Below are positions 1,719 to 28,241 of a DNA stretch of 35,259 nt, piece by piece (positions within the stretch are counted from its first letter, which is position 1; every line of letters begins with the position of its first letter). The position numbers and the translations under genes were made by a program. Origin of the DNA: a virus. The DNA lies in IMG/VR virus record IMGVR_UViG_3300040815_000389, positions 1 to 35,259 of that record; one strand, given 5' to 3'. Under the pieces are notes generated by a model that was not told the DNA's origin, did not search any database, and worked only from the letters and a program-made list of their open reading frames with translations.

Positions 1719-4301
1719 CTAAAAACCTGTAAATTGTTGCGATGGTTTAGTCAATAAAAACTCCTGATTGTAGTCTTTCTCCATACGTTTCTCCATTCTT
1801 TTCAATACTCCAGGATTCATAGTCTCCATCATCTGATATCCAATCAGGTAATCAAATGCTGTTTTTGTATAAAACAGATTTAAGAATGGAATATTAGTAG
1901 ATATAGTCTTATATGCTTGTCGTGCTGCTTTGCCACCCTCTCCGGTTACTCCATATTTCATTGCTTGTAATACATCAAATGCACTTAATGGGACTGGGCC
2001 GAGCATACTTGCAGCAATTTCACCACCAGTCCTGGTCTCCTGAAATAACACATCACCATATAAGCCAAGACCACCACCTTGTAATATCGCCGCTAATACT
2101 GTTTTACCTTTTAAAGGGTCTCTTGCAGATCTTCCTTTCAACAAATCTTTTGCTGTCATTGATAAATATCCAAGTAAAGCAGATGTAACAAACAATGAGG
2201 CAACACCACTAATTGCTCTAGCTTTGTTTCCAGCTCTCCAAAACGATGCTTCTCTGGATAATGTTTTGTAGATAATAGACATTGGAAACGCTTTAAATTG
2301 ACCAATAAATCTAATGGCCTCACCCATTGTAGTTCCAGCCATTAGTCCTTGTGTCATAATACCTTTGACTTTAGCATCTGGTTCAATCACAGCATAGGTT
2401 GTTCTATCTAGTAACATGCCGGATACAGATGATTTAAACTTTTCTTTGATAATTCTAATCTCACGCTGACTTGCATTATCTAAACCAGCAATCAATTTAG
2501 CTTGTTGATCTGTAATATTGTCTAAGTTTTTAATACTAATAAACTCTGTACCATCGGCTGCTTTTTCCATAGCCACAGATCGAATAATATTCCATCGTGT
2601 TTTATCAATATTGTATTGACCAAATAAGGTTTTAAGTGGTGCATTTAAGTTATCAAACTCTATACTTTTTTGTTTAGCAAAGTAATTAGCCATACTCAAC
2701 ATAGCACCTTCTTTGAGCGTGTTAGTCCACCAAGACAATAAGTTGTATTTAAAGAATGTACGTTGCACGTTAGTCCATCCTTTAGATAAATTGTCACCTA
2801 CTTGAAATCGACCAGAGATGTCGTAAATAGCACTATCAGCCATGAAGCCTAATGATTCAGCAATCTCTTTTTTGTCTTTACTGTTTTTAATTTTAAATAA
2901 TGAACTCAGAGCTTCAGCCATGCCACCTAAAAATGATCTACCTTGGTATCTCATTTCAGCACCATATTGAGCTAAATCAGATGCAGCACTAATGACAGCA
3001 CCACCAAGCTTTGCTGTACTTGCAACAGCACGTGTAATAGCAGACCACTTAGCAACACCAAAGTTTTCTACTGAATAGACAGTTCCATCAACAATATTCA
3101 TAAACTTTTCATATTGTTTAGCATTAACTTGTCCAGCATCTCTTCCTTCTGCGGCTAATCGAGTTGCTACAGCTTTTCTAATCTTTTCAAAGTTCTGTGC
3201 TGGCTTAGTCCCTAGTGTATCCATAATGCCAATGTTACGTCCAGCTGTTGTAAGGCCAGAAAAGAATGATTCATTCAAGTTACCTACACCAAACATCTCA
3301 TTATATTCAAACCAACTATCAGCATCTTTGAAATGTAATACTCGCTTCATCTGTGCAGACTTTGCTACGTTCTTAGTAGGTCTTGAACCAAATGTAAATT
3401 CAGCACCGTCAGATTTTAGTGAGTCATTTCTAACAAGTGAGTTATATGCAAATAACATAAACTCATCGATGTTATCTGTATCAGCAAAGGTTCTGTCCTT
3501 ATCAAGTTTGTCCATAACAAACTCTTTCCAAGCTGTAAAGTTCTTGTTATAGTTTTGATCATACTTTGCTGCTAGTTTTGGATCAGTAGGAATATCTTGC
3601 TTGCCTAATACATTGGCTGCATCTCGAACTAAATATGGATCATGCGATTGTCTAACCACATAACCCCATAACTTTCCAATATTAGCACCACGATCATTGA
3701 GCTGCTGTCTGACCATCTCAGAGTATTCGTGTAGTATTGTTCCAAGCTTTACAATCTCTGGATTCTTTTCTGATAGTGTTGGTTTGATTCCGGCATCAGC
3801 TTCTGCTTTAGTTGGTTGCTCAGCTAGATCTTTCATTACACGTGTAATTCTTAGTTGAGTATTTCTATCAGCATTAGCAAAGAGTCTTTCTACTCCAGCA
3901 TCACGTAAACGCTTAGGTATACCATTGATTAATTGATTCACAGCAGCATGTTGTTGCACTGCGACTGAGGCCCTAGCACCTTTCTTTTGATCTGTAGATC
4001 CAATAAGAATAGCATTTAATCCTTCTTTAGGATTGTCCCGGAACTCTTCAAACACATACTCAACAAGTTCACGACCTTTGATTTCATCTTCAATAGCATT
4101 ACGTTTGTTAATCTTGCGTTGTAATACAATCTGATCTTGTACAGTTTGTGCTACTTCATCAATGTTAATCTCATCAATTCTGTTTAGCTTTAGTTCAGCT
4201 TGAGCAATCTTAAGCTGATTAAGAATCTCATCTCTCTCAACAAAGCCAATAGACGACTTATCTAGTAACTTCTGAACTCTTATTAAACATTTATCTGCCA
4301 T
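1719..4301 (-). CDS. Large internal virion protein (gp16-like)
   Basis: An 860-residue, mostly helical protein at the distal end of the tail/internal-core block, just before the tail fibre. By position and size it matches the large internal virion (ejection) proteins of T7-like phages, which form the inner core and enter the cell envelope during DNA injection. The first 130 residues are highly charged and helical. Moderately hydrophobic alanine- and glycine-rich stretches occur in the middle (around the KLGGAVISAASDLAQYG segment), and a hydrophobic stretch near residue 700 reads ASLFVTSALLGYL. No lytic transglycosylase motif is visible, unlike T7 gp16. It starts 2 bases after the 403-residue gene, so the two are probably translated together. 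The function is inferred from context. Confidence 0.75.
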   Translation of the reverse strand: MADKCLIRVQKLLDKSSIGFVERDEILNQLKIAQAELKLNRIDEINIDEVAQTVQDQIVLQRKINKRNAIEDEIKGRELVEYVFEEFRDNPKEGLNAILIGSTDQKKGARASVAVQQHAAVNQLINGIPKRLRDAGVERLFANADRNTQLRITRVMKDLAEQPTKAEADAGIKPTLSEKNPEIVKLGTILHEYSEMVRQQLNDRGANIGKLWGYVVRQSHDPYLVRDAANVLGKQDIPTDPKLAAKYDQNYNKNFTAWKEFVMDKLDKDRTFADTDNIDEFMLFAYNSLVRNDSLKSDGAEFTFGSRPTKNVAKSAQMKRVLHFKDADSWFEYNEMFGVGNLNESFFSGLTTAGRNIGIMDTLGTKPAQNFEKIRKAVATRLAAEGRDAGQVNAKQYEKFMNIVDGTVYSVENFGVAKWSAITRAVASTAKLGGAVISAASDLAQYGAEMRYQGRSFLGGMAEALSSLFKIKNSKDKKEIAESLGFMADSAIYDISGRFQVGDNLSKGWTNVQRTFFKYNLLSWWTNTLKEGAMLSMANYFAKQKSIEFDNLNAPLKTLFGQYNIDKTRWNIIRSVAMEKAADGTEFISIKNLDNITDQQAKLIAGLDNASQREIRIIKEKFKSSVSGMLLDRTTYAVIEPDAKVKGIMTQGLMAGTTMGEAIRFIGQFKAFPMSIIYKTLSREASFWRAGNKARAISGVASLFVTSALLGYLSMTAKDLLKGRSARDPLKGKTVLAAILQGGGLGLYGDVLFQETRTGGEIAASMLGPVPLSAFDVLQAMKYGVTGEGGKAARQAYKTISTNIPFLNLFYTKTAFDYLIGYQMMETMNPGVLKRMEKRMEKDYNQEFLLTKPSQQFTGF

Positions 4302-20353: not shown

Positions 20354-20762
20354 TATCTATTGTTTCCGGTGCTTTAATATTAATCCCAATCACAGACGGT
20401 TTATCTGAGTCATCCGGTGTATCCAACAGACCACTGGCTTTCGCTAACAGTCTTAAGGTTTGTACCTTGTCCCAAAGTTCAATCTCAATCTCACCGGTTT
20501 TAGGATTGGTTTTAATTTTTTTAATCGCTTGCATTGCATGTTCAGGAATGTCCTTACTGGCTTTCACTTTGACATTACCCGCTTCATCCCATTCCATAAT
20601 ATCCGAGAGTTTAGTATTGGCCATACACAGCAACGAGTAGGCCACGGCCTCTCGGTTTGCTGCGATGGTTGTACTCTTCTCTAAGTTTTTCTGTAAAGCT
20701 CTGACACCGCCATAACCTGACAGACTTGGAATCGGTTTATTTTTGTTTTTAGTTTCACTCAT
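20343..20762 (-). CDS. terS: Terminase small subunit, probable
   Basis: 139 residues, four genes before terL. The region AANREAVAYSLLCMANTKLSDIMEWD and the C-terminal part IKKIKTNPKTGEIEIELWDKVQTLRLLAKASGLL resemble the end of small terminase subunits, where a beta-hairpin built from residues like K-TGEIEIEL precedes an oligomerising helix with KxxALxLLxKxxGL. The N-terminal part has only a weak helix-turn-helix. It should recognise phage DNA and hand it to the large subunit. The stop of the SSB-like gene and this start overlap by one base. An alternative would be an unrelated packaging regulator. Confidence 0.65.
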   Translation of the reverse strand: MSETKNKNKPIPSLSGYGGVRALQKNLEKSTTIAANREAVAYSLLCMANTKLSDIMEWDEAGNVKVKASKDIPEHAMQAIKKIKTNPKTGEIEIELWDKVQTLRLLAKASGLLDTPDDSDKPSVIGINIKAPETIDNEE

Positions 20763-21061
20763 TAGAAGGGTAGATCGTCTTCCATTTCCACAAGTGAATC
20801 CGACGAGACGTTATTCTGTACTGGTGCGGATGGTTGGGTATTGGCACCTTGTTTAACTGGATTACCGATTTTAACTTTGTACCATTTGTTTCCAGAACTT
20901 TGTGCAACGTTTTCGTAGAGATTAATGTAGCATCGTGTTCCATCTGGTAATAACACTTGGCCTTGGTAGTCGCCATGCCAATCCTCTGTCTTATCGTTGT
21001 TAATAAATAATTTGCCTTCGTTTTCTTTCAATTCTAACGGACGTTTATTATCTTCAGCCAT
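20762..21061 (-). CDS. SSB-like protein with acidic C-terminal tip
   Basis: 99 residues from the ATG at 21061, chosen because GGAAG lies just upstream; a longer frame to 21166 lies inside the RusA gene and lacks a site. The core (DWHGDYQGQVLLPDGTRCYINLYE, then KWYKVKIG) is strand-rich and compatible with a small OB fold. After a Pro/Asn/Gln/Ser linker the protein ends in EMEDDLPF, nearly the DDDIPF tip by which bacterial SSBs recruit partner enzymes. It sits beside RusA in the recombination block. SSB activity is inferred from the tail and context; I do not recognise the core. Confidence 0.6.
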   Translation of the reverse strand: MAEDNKRPLELKENEGKLFINNDKTEDWHGDYQGQVLLPDGTRCYINLYENVAQSSGNKWYKVKIGNPVKQGANTQPSAPVQNNVSSDSLVEMEDDLPF

Positions 21062-21431
21062 TATCTTCTTCCTTTTCTGTTTCATAAATATGGACGACGG
21101 CAGCGCCACCATCCTTCGGTTCACCTCTAGCAATTTCAATGTATTCAAATTGACTATCGTCATCATACACGTTAGCCTTCATCAATGCATCTAGTATTGC
21201 TTTGAGAGTATTATCTAGGTCGAATTTTCTTTTCGATCTAGGGTGTATCATGACACTGATTCCAAGACTCTTATCGCCAAAGCTTTTGTAGCCAGATTGT
21301 TTTACGATTACATCAACTTCCTCCGTAAATTTTTTTCCAGCTGGAGAGATATACCTTCGCTTTCCCGATGCATGCCAATAATTATTCACACTGGGCGGGT
21401 AAGGCAATTCAAATCTCAGAGTCGGTGTCAT
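21054..21431 (-). CDS. rusA: RusA-family Holliday junction resolvase
   Basis: 125 residues, the normal RusA length. The N-terminus (FELPYPPSVNNYWH) is the family opening. The catalytic region FDLDNTLKAILDALMKANVYDDDSQ carries acidic residues D71, D73 and D90-D92 and lysine K77 of the conserved DLDN-K-LDAL pattern. It forms a dimer that cuts four-way junctions made by recombination. With the exonuclease and ERF protein on the other arm, it can process the concatemer network before packaging. It overlaps the ribbon-helix-helix gene by 4 bases (ATGA) and the SSB-like gene by 8. Confidence 0.92.
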   Translation of the reverse strand: MTPTLRFELPYPPSVNNYWHASGKRRYISPAGKKFTEEVDVIVKQSGYKSFGDKSLGISVMIHPRSKRKFDLDNTLKAILDALMKANVYDDDSQFEYIEIARGEPKDGGAAVVHIYETEKEEDNG

Positions 21432-26318: not shown

Positions 26319-26460
26319 AAGCCACATCCGGCAAATCATCAATTTAATCTTTGAGTTAGAAAGAACAGGTCAATTGGACATGCAAGATTGGTTCACTATG
26401 ATCAATGATCTTGATGACTTCTTAGAACTACTTAACGGAAAGGATAACCATGGTAGGTAA
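26284..26460 (+). CDS. Hypothetical small acidic helical protein (58 aa)
   Basis: 58 residues, helical and acidic (HIRQIINLIFELERTGQLDMQDWFTMINDLDDFLELL). It starts after leader copy 4 with a clear GGAAGG site, overlaps the upstream gene by 35 bases and the exonuclease by 11. No family recognised. Its conserved leader argues that it is real. Confidence 0.6.
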   Translation: MTPEIENKTHIKSHIRQIINLIFELERTGQLDMQDWFTMINDLDDFLELLNGKDNHGR

Positions 26461-27412
26461 AGTCACACCGAACGACCAGCTATCAGCGTCTGAAATACCT
26501 GTATTAATGGGTGCATCACGCTTTATGACGGTCAACGAACTATTAAAACAAAAGATGGATGTTATCTCAGGGATTGATCCACCATTCACAGAAAATGAAA
26601 GCATGTTTTGGGGCAATACACTTGAGACAACGATACTCAATGAGTCATGTGCAAGGCTTGGGCTTGGCAATCCAAAGACCACACATCTCAAACCATACTT
26701 TCACAAGTCAATACCCATCGCATGTAGTTTAGATGGCACTGTAACAGGTGATAACAGAACAATCATGACGGATATTGAAAAAGGGATTGTGTGCGTCAAT
26801 GAGGACGAGATAGTGCTGGATGGTATGGGCGTTGTCGAAGCTAAACTGACTGCGCATGAAGTAGAATCAGCAACAGAACTACCACTGTATCGTGGGCCTT
26901 TGCAATTACAAATGCAAATGGACATCACCGGTGCAAAGTGGGGTGCTGTGTGTGTACTGTACAAAGGTACCACTCTAAAAACTTTTGTATACAAACGAGA
27001 TGAAGAGGTCATTGCCCGGATTCATGCAGCAGTGATTGATTTTCAACGTCGCTTGGACAAATACAAAACTAATGATGAGGTCGAATGGTATGACATGGAG
27101 TCGACCAAAGAAGCCGCATCCATCTTTGATGAAGCTGAAAAGGAAACGATTACACTCGATGATGTAGAGGAAGATGTCAACAAAATCATAGAGTTACGTC
27201 AGATCCATGCAGACATAGAAGAGCAAATTAAGAACCATGAACTTAAGATTATGGATCGTATGCGTGACAATATGTATGCCATTTCAGGTCAGTACAAAAT
27301 CTCATGGCCAATGATTAGTTACAAGGCCACGCCTGAGAAGATTGTACCAGCCAAACCCGCACGAACTGTGCGCCAATCTAAATTACGTATAAGGACAGTC
27401 GACAATGGATGA
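26450..27412 (+). CDS. YqaJ-type recombination exonuclease
   Basis: 320 residues. The N-terminus SASEIPVLMGASRFMTVNELL and the WGNTLE site (54-59) are the YqaJ opening. SLDG (93-96, D95), VVEAK (128-132, E130 and K132) and YRGPLQLQMQMDITG (147-161) are the catalytic D, E-x-K and Q region of the lambda-exonuclease-like fold. The C-terminal third is an acidic coiled coil (about 230-280) and a basic end. It resects duplex ends to give 3' strands for the ERF annealing protein encoded just downstream. Upstream GGAAAGGATAACC is a good ribosome site. Confidence 0.9.
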   Translation: MVGKVTPNDQLSASEIPVLMGASRFMTVNELLKQKMDVISGIDPPFTENESMFWGNTLETTILNESCARLGLGNPKTTHLKPYFHKSIPIACSLDGTVTGDNRTIMTDIEKGIVCVNEDEIVLDGMGVVEAKLTAHEVESATELPLYRGPLQLQMQMDITGAKWGAVCVLYKGTTLKTFVYKRDEEVIARIHAAVIDFQRRLDKYKTNDEVEWYDMESTKEAASIFDEAEKETITLDDVEEDVNKIIELRQIHADIEEQIKNHELKIMDRMRDNMYAISGQYKISWPMISYKATPEKIVPAKPARTVRQSKLRIRTVDNG

Positions 27413-27590
27413 TTTACAGTATCTATATGAAACCGTCATACGTGAAGAAGAGTATGAGCAAGATCAAAAGGATGACGCTGAGTTTTTAGCGATCATCAAA
27501 CGACGCATTGTAGATAAACGCAGACGTCGTGAATTAATATTAACTTACTTTGGAGAAGATTATGACAGAGAAAACTTTGGGGATTGCTAA
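27405..27590 (+). CDS. Hypothetical acidic/basic helical protein (61 aa)
   Basis: 61 residues between exonuclease and ERF genes. The first half is very acidic (YETVIREEEYEQDQKDD); the second has a basic helix IIKRRIVDKRRRRELIL. This two-charge design could bridge proteins or DNA in the recombination complex, but this is inference. It overlaps the exonuclease by 8 bases and ERF by 29. Confidence 0.6.
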   Translation: MDDLQYLYETVIREEEYEQDQKDDAEFLAIIKRRIVDKRRRRELILTYFGEDYDRENFGDC

Positions 27591-28002
27591 GGCATTTGTC
27601 GAGGCACAAAAAGAGTTTGCCCCAGCTCTTAAAACATCAACTAACCCACACTTTAAATCTAAGTATGTGGATCTGGCGGGTTGCGTTGAAGCTGTGATTG
27701 ATGCATTGAACAACCATGGCATTGCACTGATACAAAAGACTCATGATTGCGATAGTGGCGTTAAGGTCGAGACTATCTTTATGCATGAAAGCGGTGAACA
27801 AATATCAGGTGGATTGATTCATGTCCCGGCAGATAAACATACACCACAAGGTTATGGATCAGCATTGACGTATGCCAGACGTTACTCGCTCATGGCATCC
27901 TGTGGTATTGCTCCGGAAGATGATGATGGCAACGCAGCAACAAAGTCTATGGTAGATAAGCTACCACAAAGAAAGGTACCTGAAGAAGCAAAAAAGTTCT
28001 AA
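27562..28002 (+). CDS. erf: ERF-family single-strand annealing protein (short form)
   Basis: 146 residues from ATG at 27562 with GGAGA upstream. KAFVEAQKEFAPALKTSTNP, FKSKYVDLAGCVEAVIDALNNHGIALIQ, and PQGYGSALTYARRYSLMASCGIAPEDDDGNAA are the conserved ERF blocks, so it anneals complementary strands in RecA-independent recombination. The typical ERF protein is near 200 residues; this one ends early at KKF. The last codons are GCA AAA AAG TTC TAA, where A AAA AAG is a -1 slippery site, so a longer form probably exists (see 27996-28241). It pairs with the exonuclease upstream. Confidence 0.9.
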   Translation: MTEKTLGIAKAFVEAQKEFAPALKTSTNPHFKSKYVDLAGCVEAVIDALNNHGIALIQKTHDCDSGVKVETIFMHESGEQISGGLIHVPADKHTPQGYGSALTYARRYSLMASCGIAPEDDDGNAATKSMVDKLPQRKVPEEAKKF

Positions 28003-28037
28003 GCCTCAATCTACCTGGCAAGGATCCGATTGAGGTT
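27972..28037 (+). promoter_or_regulatory. Programmed -1 frameshift signal
   Basis: Three parts in the expected order: an AAAGG Shine-Dalgarno-like site (27972-27976), the slippery heptamer A AAA AAG (27990-27996) in the ERF zero frame, and, after 5 bases, a hairpin with arms AGCCTCAATC (28002-28011) and GATTGAGGTT (28028-28037) pairing over 10 bp with one G-T. This matches the dnaX-type design in bacteria. Confidence 0.75.
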
Positions 28038-28241
28038 AAGGATAAAGATGCAATGCAGAAGACCATGATTGAGATGTCACACAGGATTGGTGACAGTCAG
28101 CTTGACAAAGATACGAAAGCAAAGAAGCTAACAGAATTCTTTGAAGTCAACAAACAAGCGCTTAGCGTATTAGGCCCTGACACATTCTTAGCGATTAAGA
28201 ATGAGATTGGTGACATCTTACGTCGAGTGAGTCAGGAGTAA
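27996..28241 (+). CDS. ERF C-terminal extension in the -1 frame
   Basis: A frame of 81 codons without a good start of its own: after the slip the first codon is GTT at 27996, and the only ATG (28053) has no proper ribosome site. Read as a fusion it gives ERF of 226 residues: 145 from the zero frame and 81 from here (VLSLNLPGKDPIEV, then MIEMSHRIGDSQLDKDTKAKK and FLAIKNEIGDILRRV). This helical, charged tail could oligomerise or bind partners. An alternative is a homopolymer sequencing error that broke one ERF gene; the hairpin and spacing argue against it. Confidence 0.68.
   Translation, partial: VLSLNLPGKDPIEVKDKDAMQKTMIEMSHRIGDSQLDKDTKAKKLTEFFEVNKQALSVLGPDTFLAIKNEIGDILRRVSQE

Follow-up and report, generated by a model that had tools for sequence, protein, structure and literature searches.

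Does the ERF gene of this virus end at its own stop codon, or is a second, longer protein also made from it by ribosomes that change frame just before that stop? In the window, by which we mean the whole stretch of 35,259 nucleotides that was analysed (positions 1 to 35,259 of IMG/VR record IMGVR_UViG_3300040815_000389), the gene closes with the 0-frame codons AAA AAG TTC TAA, and behind the A AAA AAG heptamer the -1 frame stays open for a further 81 codons (Table 1). The original prediction was that -1 programmed frameshifting joins ERF to this extension and that the phage may make two forms of its annealing protein. Comparison with relatives strongly supports it through the phase of the heptamer, selection on the extension, the scatter of possible starts, the position of the 0-frame stop and the homology of the extension, and we put the probability at about 0.88 that a group of aquatic phages shares a conserved -1 programmed ribosomal frameshift in the ERF gene that yields a short and a long form. 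The heptamer, the AAAGG 13 nt before it and the 10-bp hairpin 5 nt after it had been placed correctly to the base, and the reading frames in the window agree with an 81-codon extension and a fused product of 226 residues (145 + 81).

The mechanism we propose is as follows. Ribosomes translating the ERF mRNA would reach the heptamer with the hairpin blocking the mRNA entrance and AAAGG paired with 16S rRNA behind them, and a fraction of them would slip back by one base. Those that do not slip would end one codon later and release the 146-aa annealing domain alone, while those that slip would add 81 residues, predicted to form a beta-hairpin and a three-helix domain, to give a protein of 226 aa. 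As the biology of annealing proteins suggests, the short form would anneal and assemble, and the long form would add a docking domain.

Table 1. Coordinates of features at the ERF locus of the window, with the basis for each.
Feature	Position	Strand	Basis
YqaJ-like exonuclease/recombinase gene	26450..27412	+	Pfam YqaJ PF09588, E 6.9e-6, above cut-off
GGAG, likely ERF ribosome-binding site, 6 nt 5' of ATG	27552..27555	+	sequence
ERF gene, 0 frame, from ATG 27562; short form of 146 aa (annealing domain)	27562..28002	+	PF04404
AAAGG, Shine-Dalgarno-like, 13 nt 5' of heptamer	27972..27976	+	sequence
Slippery heptamer A AAA AAG	27990..27996	+	sequence; phase shared with split relatives
0-frame stop TAA, ends short form	28000..28002	+	stop near slip in all distinct signals
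Downstream hairpin, candidate stimulator (arms 28002-28011 and 28028-28037)	28002..28037	+	folding, codon conservation
-1 frame extension, 81 codons and stop (TAA 28239-28241)	27997..28241	+	open frame, profile, omega, model
First standard -1-frame start, ATG	28053..28055	+	not conserved; judged unused

Relatives were gathered by ERF-, extension- and DNA-based searches, which returned IMG/VR loci and one locus from a metagenome-assembled genome. The original prediction had asked whether related phages keep the heptamer and whether some carry a fused gene; both are the case. Among 60 non-fused loci, a set made up of the loci from the earlier searches, the isolated phage MEP301 (MW452941.1) and the window after removal of 10 repeat loci, an in-phase slippery heptamer lies exactly at the junction in every one (48 distinct signals), as AAAAAAG in 59 cases and AAAAAAA in one. 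A heptamer-blind scan with a peptide motif 3' of the slip gave 55 loci, many of them contigs found earlier and one (L115) classified from another search; 52 were split with the heptamer and three (L321-L323) were uninterrupted. Over all searches we count 22 distinct uninterrupted loci and 72 distinct split loci, the window included, a total that takes in one scan requiring the heptamer and is therefore no evidence for heptamer conservation. One of the searches used a pattern holding the heptamer's two lysines at the residue level, and many loci are closely related, so that counts are not numbers of independent events. No split locus without the heptamer appeared in any search, the count covering open reading frames of at least 40 residues and profile hits at E 1e-5 or better. 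As background, the other long open reading frames of the related loci, 89,933 codons in all, contain 10 in-phase copies of A_AAA_AAG (0.11 per 1000), with a -1 stop within 4 codons at two of the 10 sites, and 3 of 50 ERF loci that have no extension carry a listed slippery heptamer in their C-terminal part, not at a comparable junction.

Among isolated phages, the extension was found in MEP301 alone, with the same split and the same heptamer arrangement. Its annotation ends ERF at 3055 and begins the next gene at 3460, and the extension lies unannotated between them. No extension-like domain was found in cultured phages besides MEP301 with the window query and four further extension queries. 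The split ERF of Salmonella phage SB28 was considered as a further case of frameshifting and rejected; its two overlapping 'recombinase' genes (MK947460.1, 33360-34320, our L317) arise from a partial internal duplication of ERF, either real or an assembly artefact. We also note that in locus L107, on the same contig as L007, the extension stops early with a divergent tail, MQSVMS, relative to the near-identical L100, perhaps through an indel.

The N-terminal domain encoded in the window is a clear ERF domain (PF04404; E 3e-24, 86.2 bits against a curated cut-off of 25) and is related to Gp77 (PDB 9y6u; E 3e-17), for whose structure no paper was found in the open-licence literature; by homology to Gp77, it would be expected to anneal single-stranded DNA as a ring. 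The extension, to go by its profile, is the ordinary C-terminal domain of this ERF branch, since that profile also recognises the C-terminal domain of uninterrupted ERFs, with in-frame matches at 25 loci (these are loci with an in-frame profile match, whereas the 22 above are distinct uninterrupted loci over all searches). The gene in the window thus resembles other members of the ERF superfamily in its N-domain and in a C-domain that is the tail of uninterrupted relatives, and differs from them in that a slippery site precedes this tail, which is read in the -1 frame. The extension profile found no match in 79 Rad52-type loci (L148-L226). A longer ERF profile, phrog_155, partly covers the extension in fused relatives; searched alone, the extension gave no significant Pfam or PHROG match and no PDB family that identifies a function. 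Its AlphaFold2 model (pLDDT 78.9) consists of a beta-hairpin and three helices, and because the matches to this model in the PDB are generic or designed helical bundles, the best being a designed protein (Z 9.7), we read no function from the fold. PDB matches from profile searches were helical only and were set aside as chance.

The uninterrupted relatives bear on the question from the other side. In 16 of the 22 (L008, L117, L321 and 13 loci from among L012-L029 and L054), in-phase A_AAA_AAG stands at the junction with a -1 stop two to four codons on; the remaining 6 do not have this arrangement. The -1 stop persists throughout the 13-locus group though the residues coding it vary, and in 12 of the 13 the heptamer is followed directly by CC; according to the passages available of a frameshift review (PMC5009743), no other dinucleotide placed after A_AAA_AAG favours shifting as much in E. 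coli. By analogy with E. coli dnaX, slipping in these genes is predicted to yield a minor short form. This second polarity is less certain than the split arrangement, given the close kinship of the loci, their weak stimulators and the chance that the heptamer is a leftover; its retention in the 13-locus group is weak evidence alone, because 52 of 151 columns with an invariant residue are equally free of synonymous change. Taken together, the wider family appears to keep a two-form output both ways, with the long form made by slipping in 72 loci and the short form in 16. A tree of the extension (82 columns) contains three changes between split and fused genes, and as it is poorly resolved, with long branches, we call neither polarity ancestral. 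The original prediction had named as evidence against it relatives whose gene is uninterrupted and that lack the hairpin; uninterrupted relatives do exist, and many split relatives have no strong hairpin, but neither refutes frameshifting, since most of the uninterrupted genes retain the heptamer and have a -1 stop close by.

Both products of the split genes bear marks of constraint. The extension evolves with omega of 0.05-0.25 in 9 of 10 pairs, the exception being L119/L120 at 0.63. Of the 48 signals, 33 have the 0-frame stop 3 nt after the heptamer, 8 have it immediately after (0 nt) and 7 have it 9 nt on, and in 18 close relatives the aligned extension codon 4 is CTA or TTA only, the sole pair among the six leucine codons that preserves this stop. 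The conserved stop and this codon constraint argue that the short form's end is kept as well as the long form's body. Comparison across the relatives shows both frames, the phase of the heptamer and, in the window's clade, the hairpin to be held by selection.

These observations bear directly on the rival reading that survives best, namely that the frameshift is real and merely sets the level of full-length protein, the short form being an inactive by-product. C-terminally truncated Red-beta, according to the passages available of PMC5052646, anneals without mediating recombination, and the short form could likewise be inactive in vivo. We nonetheless regard this as unlikely, because all 48 signals keep a 0-frame stop at 0-9 nt from the slip and because a heptamer with a -1 stop would serve no purpose in uninterrupted genes if the long form were all that counted. 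That the slip might instead occur during transcription, with RNA polymerase stuttering on the A run so that part of the mRNA encodes the fusion, has little to recommend it. The run does precede a hairpin, and slippage on long A runs is described for some dnaX genes, but the lengths given in the accessible parts of those sources are 9 A or T and n > 7 (PMC5009743, PMC3711429), whereas the run here is six in 47 of the 48 distinct signals and seven in one, with T or C before it in all, and is shorter than the A/T run of about 8-9 or more that marks a transcriptional slippage site. Its codon phase is moreover identical in all split relatives, which slippage does not require. From the dnaX-type signal, we infer that the slip is ribosomal -1 frameshifting.

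Slimmer still are the prospects of the extension as a separate small gene, begun at an internal start (ATG 28053, which would give 62 aa) or by ribosomes that reinitiate once they have terminated ERF. Translational coupling is common among split genes, and the ATG is there, but across the relatives the first possible -1-frame start lies anywhere from codon 3 to codon 73 after the slip, and in several signals the stretch scanned contains no ATG. Selection already acts on extension codons 3-20 (omega 0.00-0.31), which precede any usual start, and the same domain is fused in frame in the 25 loci mentioned above. We rejected a separate downstream gene on the scattered starts and this upstream selection, and the earlier view that the extension has no convincing start of its own stands. 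A one-base difference in an A run is a classic sequencing error, but an error or a decaying, broken ERF gene is refuted for the family, with a negligible probability left to it, by the same frame relation in 60 loci from many metagenomes together with the isolate MEP301, and by purifying selection on the extension.

The elements that would stimulate frameshifting are less uniform than the site itself. The window's hairpin (10 bp including one G-U pair; -19.4 kcal/mol) folds better than dinucleotide shuffles (RNA z -3.54, 1 of 200 as stable), and none of 300 sequences in which the extension frame was recoded synonymously matches its stability (z -5.24); the latter comparison indicates that the amino-acid sequence does not explain the hairpin. 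Measured against synonymous recodings, no hairpin in the window's clade scores above a z of about -3.3, and in the 18 close relatives, codons 5-7 and 13-15, in or adjoining the stem, are without synonymous change, unlike the variable codons 9 and 10 of the loop and 16 at the edge. Over the whole family, only 22 of the 48 distinct signals fall below z of -1.64, so that the expectation that relatives keep the hairpin held within the window's clade and failed across the family. A universal hairpin was accordingly dropped; outside the clade there are short stems of the GCCTG/CAGGC type or nothing convincing. The Shine-Dalgarno-like sequence is similarly variable, with AAGG, AAGGA or AGGAG located 10-13 nt 5' of the heptamer in 29 of the 48 signals, at 5 and 7 nt in two others, and none found in 17. 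As both elements are patchy, we take the heptamer to be the constant element, with stimulators that vary around it. Separately, several of the loci L109-L115 and L121 show by eye a short stem-loop about 5-25 nt before the heptamer (CGGAAA-UGG-UUUCCG), and L114 has the same stem with another loop; this upstream structure may be a further stimulator or modulator.

The extension is not confined to ERF. A pattern scan that required the heptamer gave 93 matches, comprising 80 ERF, 6 Rad52-type and 5 of a third type, each with the extension, and 2 chance matches. The third type is represented by L258, whose N-domain is Sak (PF06378; E 3.9e-25, 88.6 bits against a cut-off of 22.3); the N-domains of L232, L261, L279 and L288 have ends near-identical to that of L258, the Pfam scan having been run on L258 alone. 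In six loci of Rad52 type from another search (L127, L129 and L131-L134; L147 is the same contig as L129), a different domain precedes the heptamer. The N-domain of L131 is not ERF by Pfam and matches only PHROG families of unknown function, the best being 11717. Its model (pLDDT 82.7) aligns with RAD52 at Z 10.3 and an rmsd of 3.5 over 114 residues, and the top 14 structure matches are all RAD52, Mgm101, Sak or Gp77, on which basis we predict a Rad52-fold, putative annealing protein. PHROG 11717 (L131:2564-3007 and L148-L226), with its predicted Rad52 fold, is probably an unrecognised single-strand annealing family; two of its members, L156 and L158, end in an SSB-like DEIPF or DDIPF tail. 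Exchange of the annealing domain is apparent between L123 (ERF) and L131 (Rad52-type). Upstream, as far as L123 position 2615, the two share 92% identity, and from 2964 onwards 91%, the heptamer standing at 3001; identity on both flanks indicates that the annealing domain alone differs at that gene. To judge from these comparisons, the unit of heptamer and extension is joined to three annealing-protein families, namely ERF, Sak and an unannotated Rad52-fold family.

To judge from this exchange of annealing domains at the slip site, one extension can serve several annealing folds, and its role would more likely involve a partner common to them than the chemistry of DNA binding. A probable partner is the YqaJ-like gene product encoded upstream of ERF in the window. 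The ERF gene of MEP301 is likewise preceded by a YqaJ gene, and the upstream open reading frames of L123, L131 and L258, which are of ERF, Rad52 and Sak type respectively, resemble the window's YqaJ-like protein at the N-terminus. Another candidate partner is the product of window positions 20762-21166 on the minus strand, likely an SSB-type protein from the DDLPF C-terminus that we read by eye; a Pfam scan of this product gave no match.

In the tail-assembly chaperones of the lambda G/GT type, as in other phage structural genes, a frameshift sets the ratio of a short to a C-terminally extended form. The ERF system would resemble these in being a phage frameshift with the same two kinds of product, here as read from sequence, and would differ in that it lies in a DNA-recombination gene and in that its frameshifted tail is exchanged among annealing folds. 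The other obvious precedent is dnaX, which encodes tau and gamma of DNA polymerase III; E. coli dnaX shifts at A_AAA_AAG, which ranks with the most shift-prone heptamers in that species, and both polarities are reported for dnaX, with the long form made by slipping in fewer bacteria (PMC5009743, passages available). Common to both systems are this heptamer, a Shine-Dalgarno-like sequence upstream, a hairpin downstream, short and long forms with a shared N-terminus, and the occurrence of both polarities. Unlike dnaX, the gene in the window encodes a phage annealing protein and not a clamp loader, its Shine-Dalgarno-like element lies 13 nt upstream, and its shifted product is the long form, an arrangement described for few bacteria in the same passages.

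Two well-studied annealing proteins suggest what a pair of forms might be for. In the accessible parts of PMC5052646, the C-terminal domain of Red-beta is needed for recombination and not for annealing; like Red-beta, the long form would pair an N-terminal annealing domain with a C-terminal domain, whereas Red-beta is a single polypeptide and two forms are expected here. No sequence or structural match appeared between the extension and the C-terminal domain of Red-beta. RAD52 builds its ring from the N-terminal half and carries partner sites in its flexible C-terminal half (PMC9989933, passages available). With Red-beta truncation and the RAD52 halves as guides, a mixed ring is the most likely use of the two forms, although we offer it tentatively, at somewhat less than even odds: the forms would co-assemble, and some subunits of the annealing ring would carry the C-terminal domain, contacting for example the YqaJ exonuclease or SSB. 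Searches of open-licence PubMed Central full texts, within the text portions they returned, gave no description of frameshifting in an annealing-protein gene, and in the passages retrieved from one matching paper, frameshifting concerns tail proteins. Erf, RecT and annealing protein are not mentioned in the passages available of the frameshift review PMC5009743, nor ERF and annealing in those of a genome-wide frameshift survey; the paper on MEP301 makes no mention of erf or frameshift.

For the family as a whole, we see an even chance that a set ratio of tailed to tail-less subunits is itself the selected trait, carried by a mobile unit that has come to stand behind at least three families (ERF, Sak and Rad52-fold) in both polarities and that yields mixed rings, comparable to the clamp loader with its mixture of tau and gamma. 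Most programmed frameshifts known in phages belong to structural and tail-assembly genes, and here the signal sits in a gene for DNA recombination. If the frameshift is confirmed, current annotations of such phages, MEP301 included, miss about a third of the protein. A silent change at the slip site would then make the protein all short or all long, and would offer a direct route to why the rings need both subunits.
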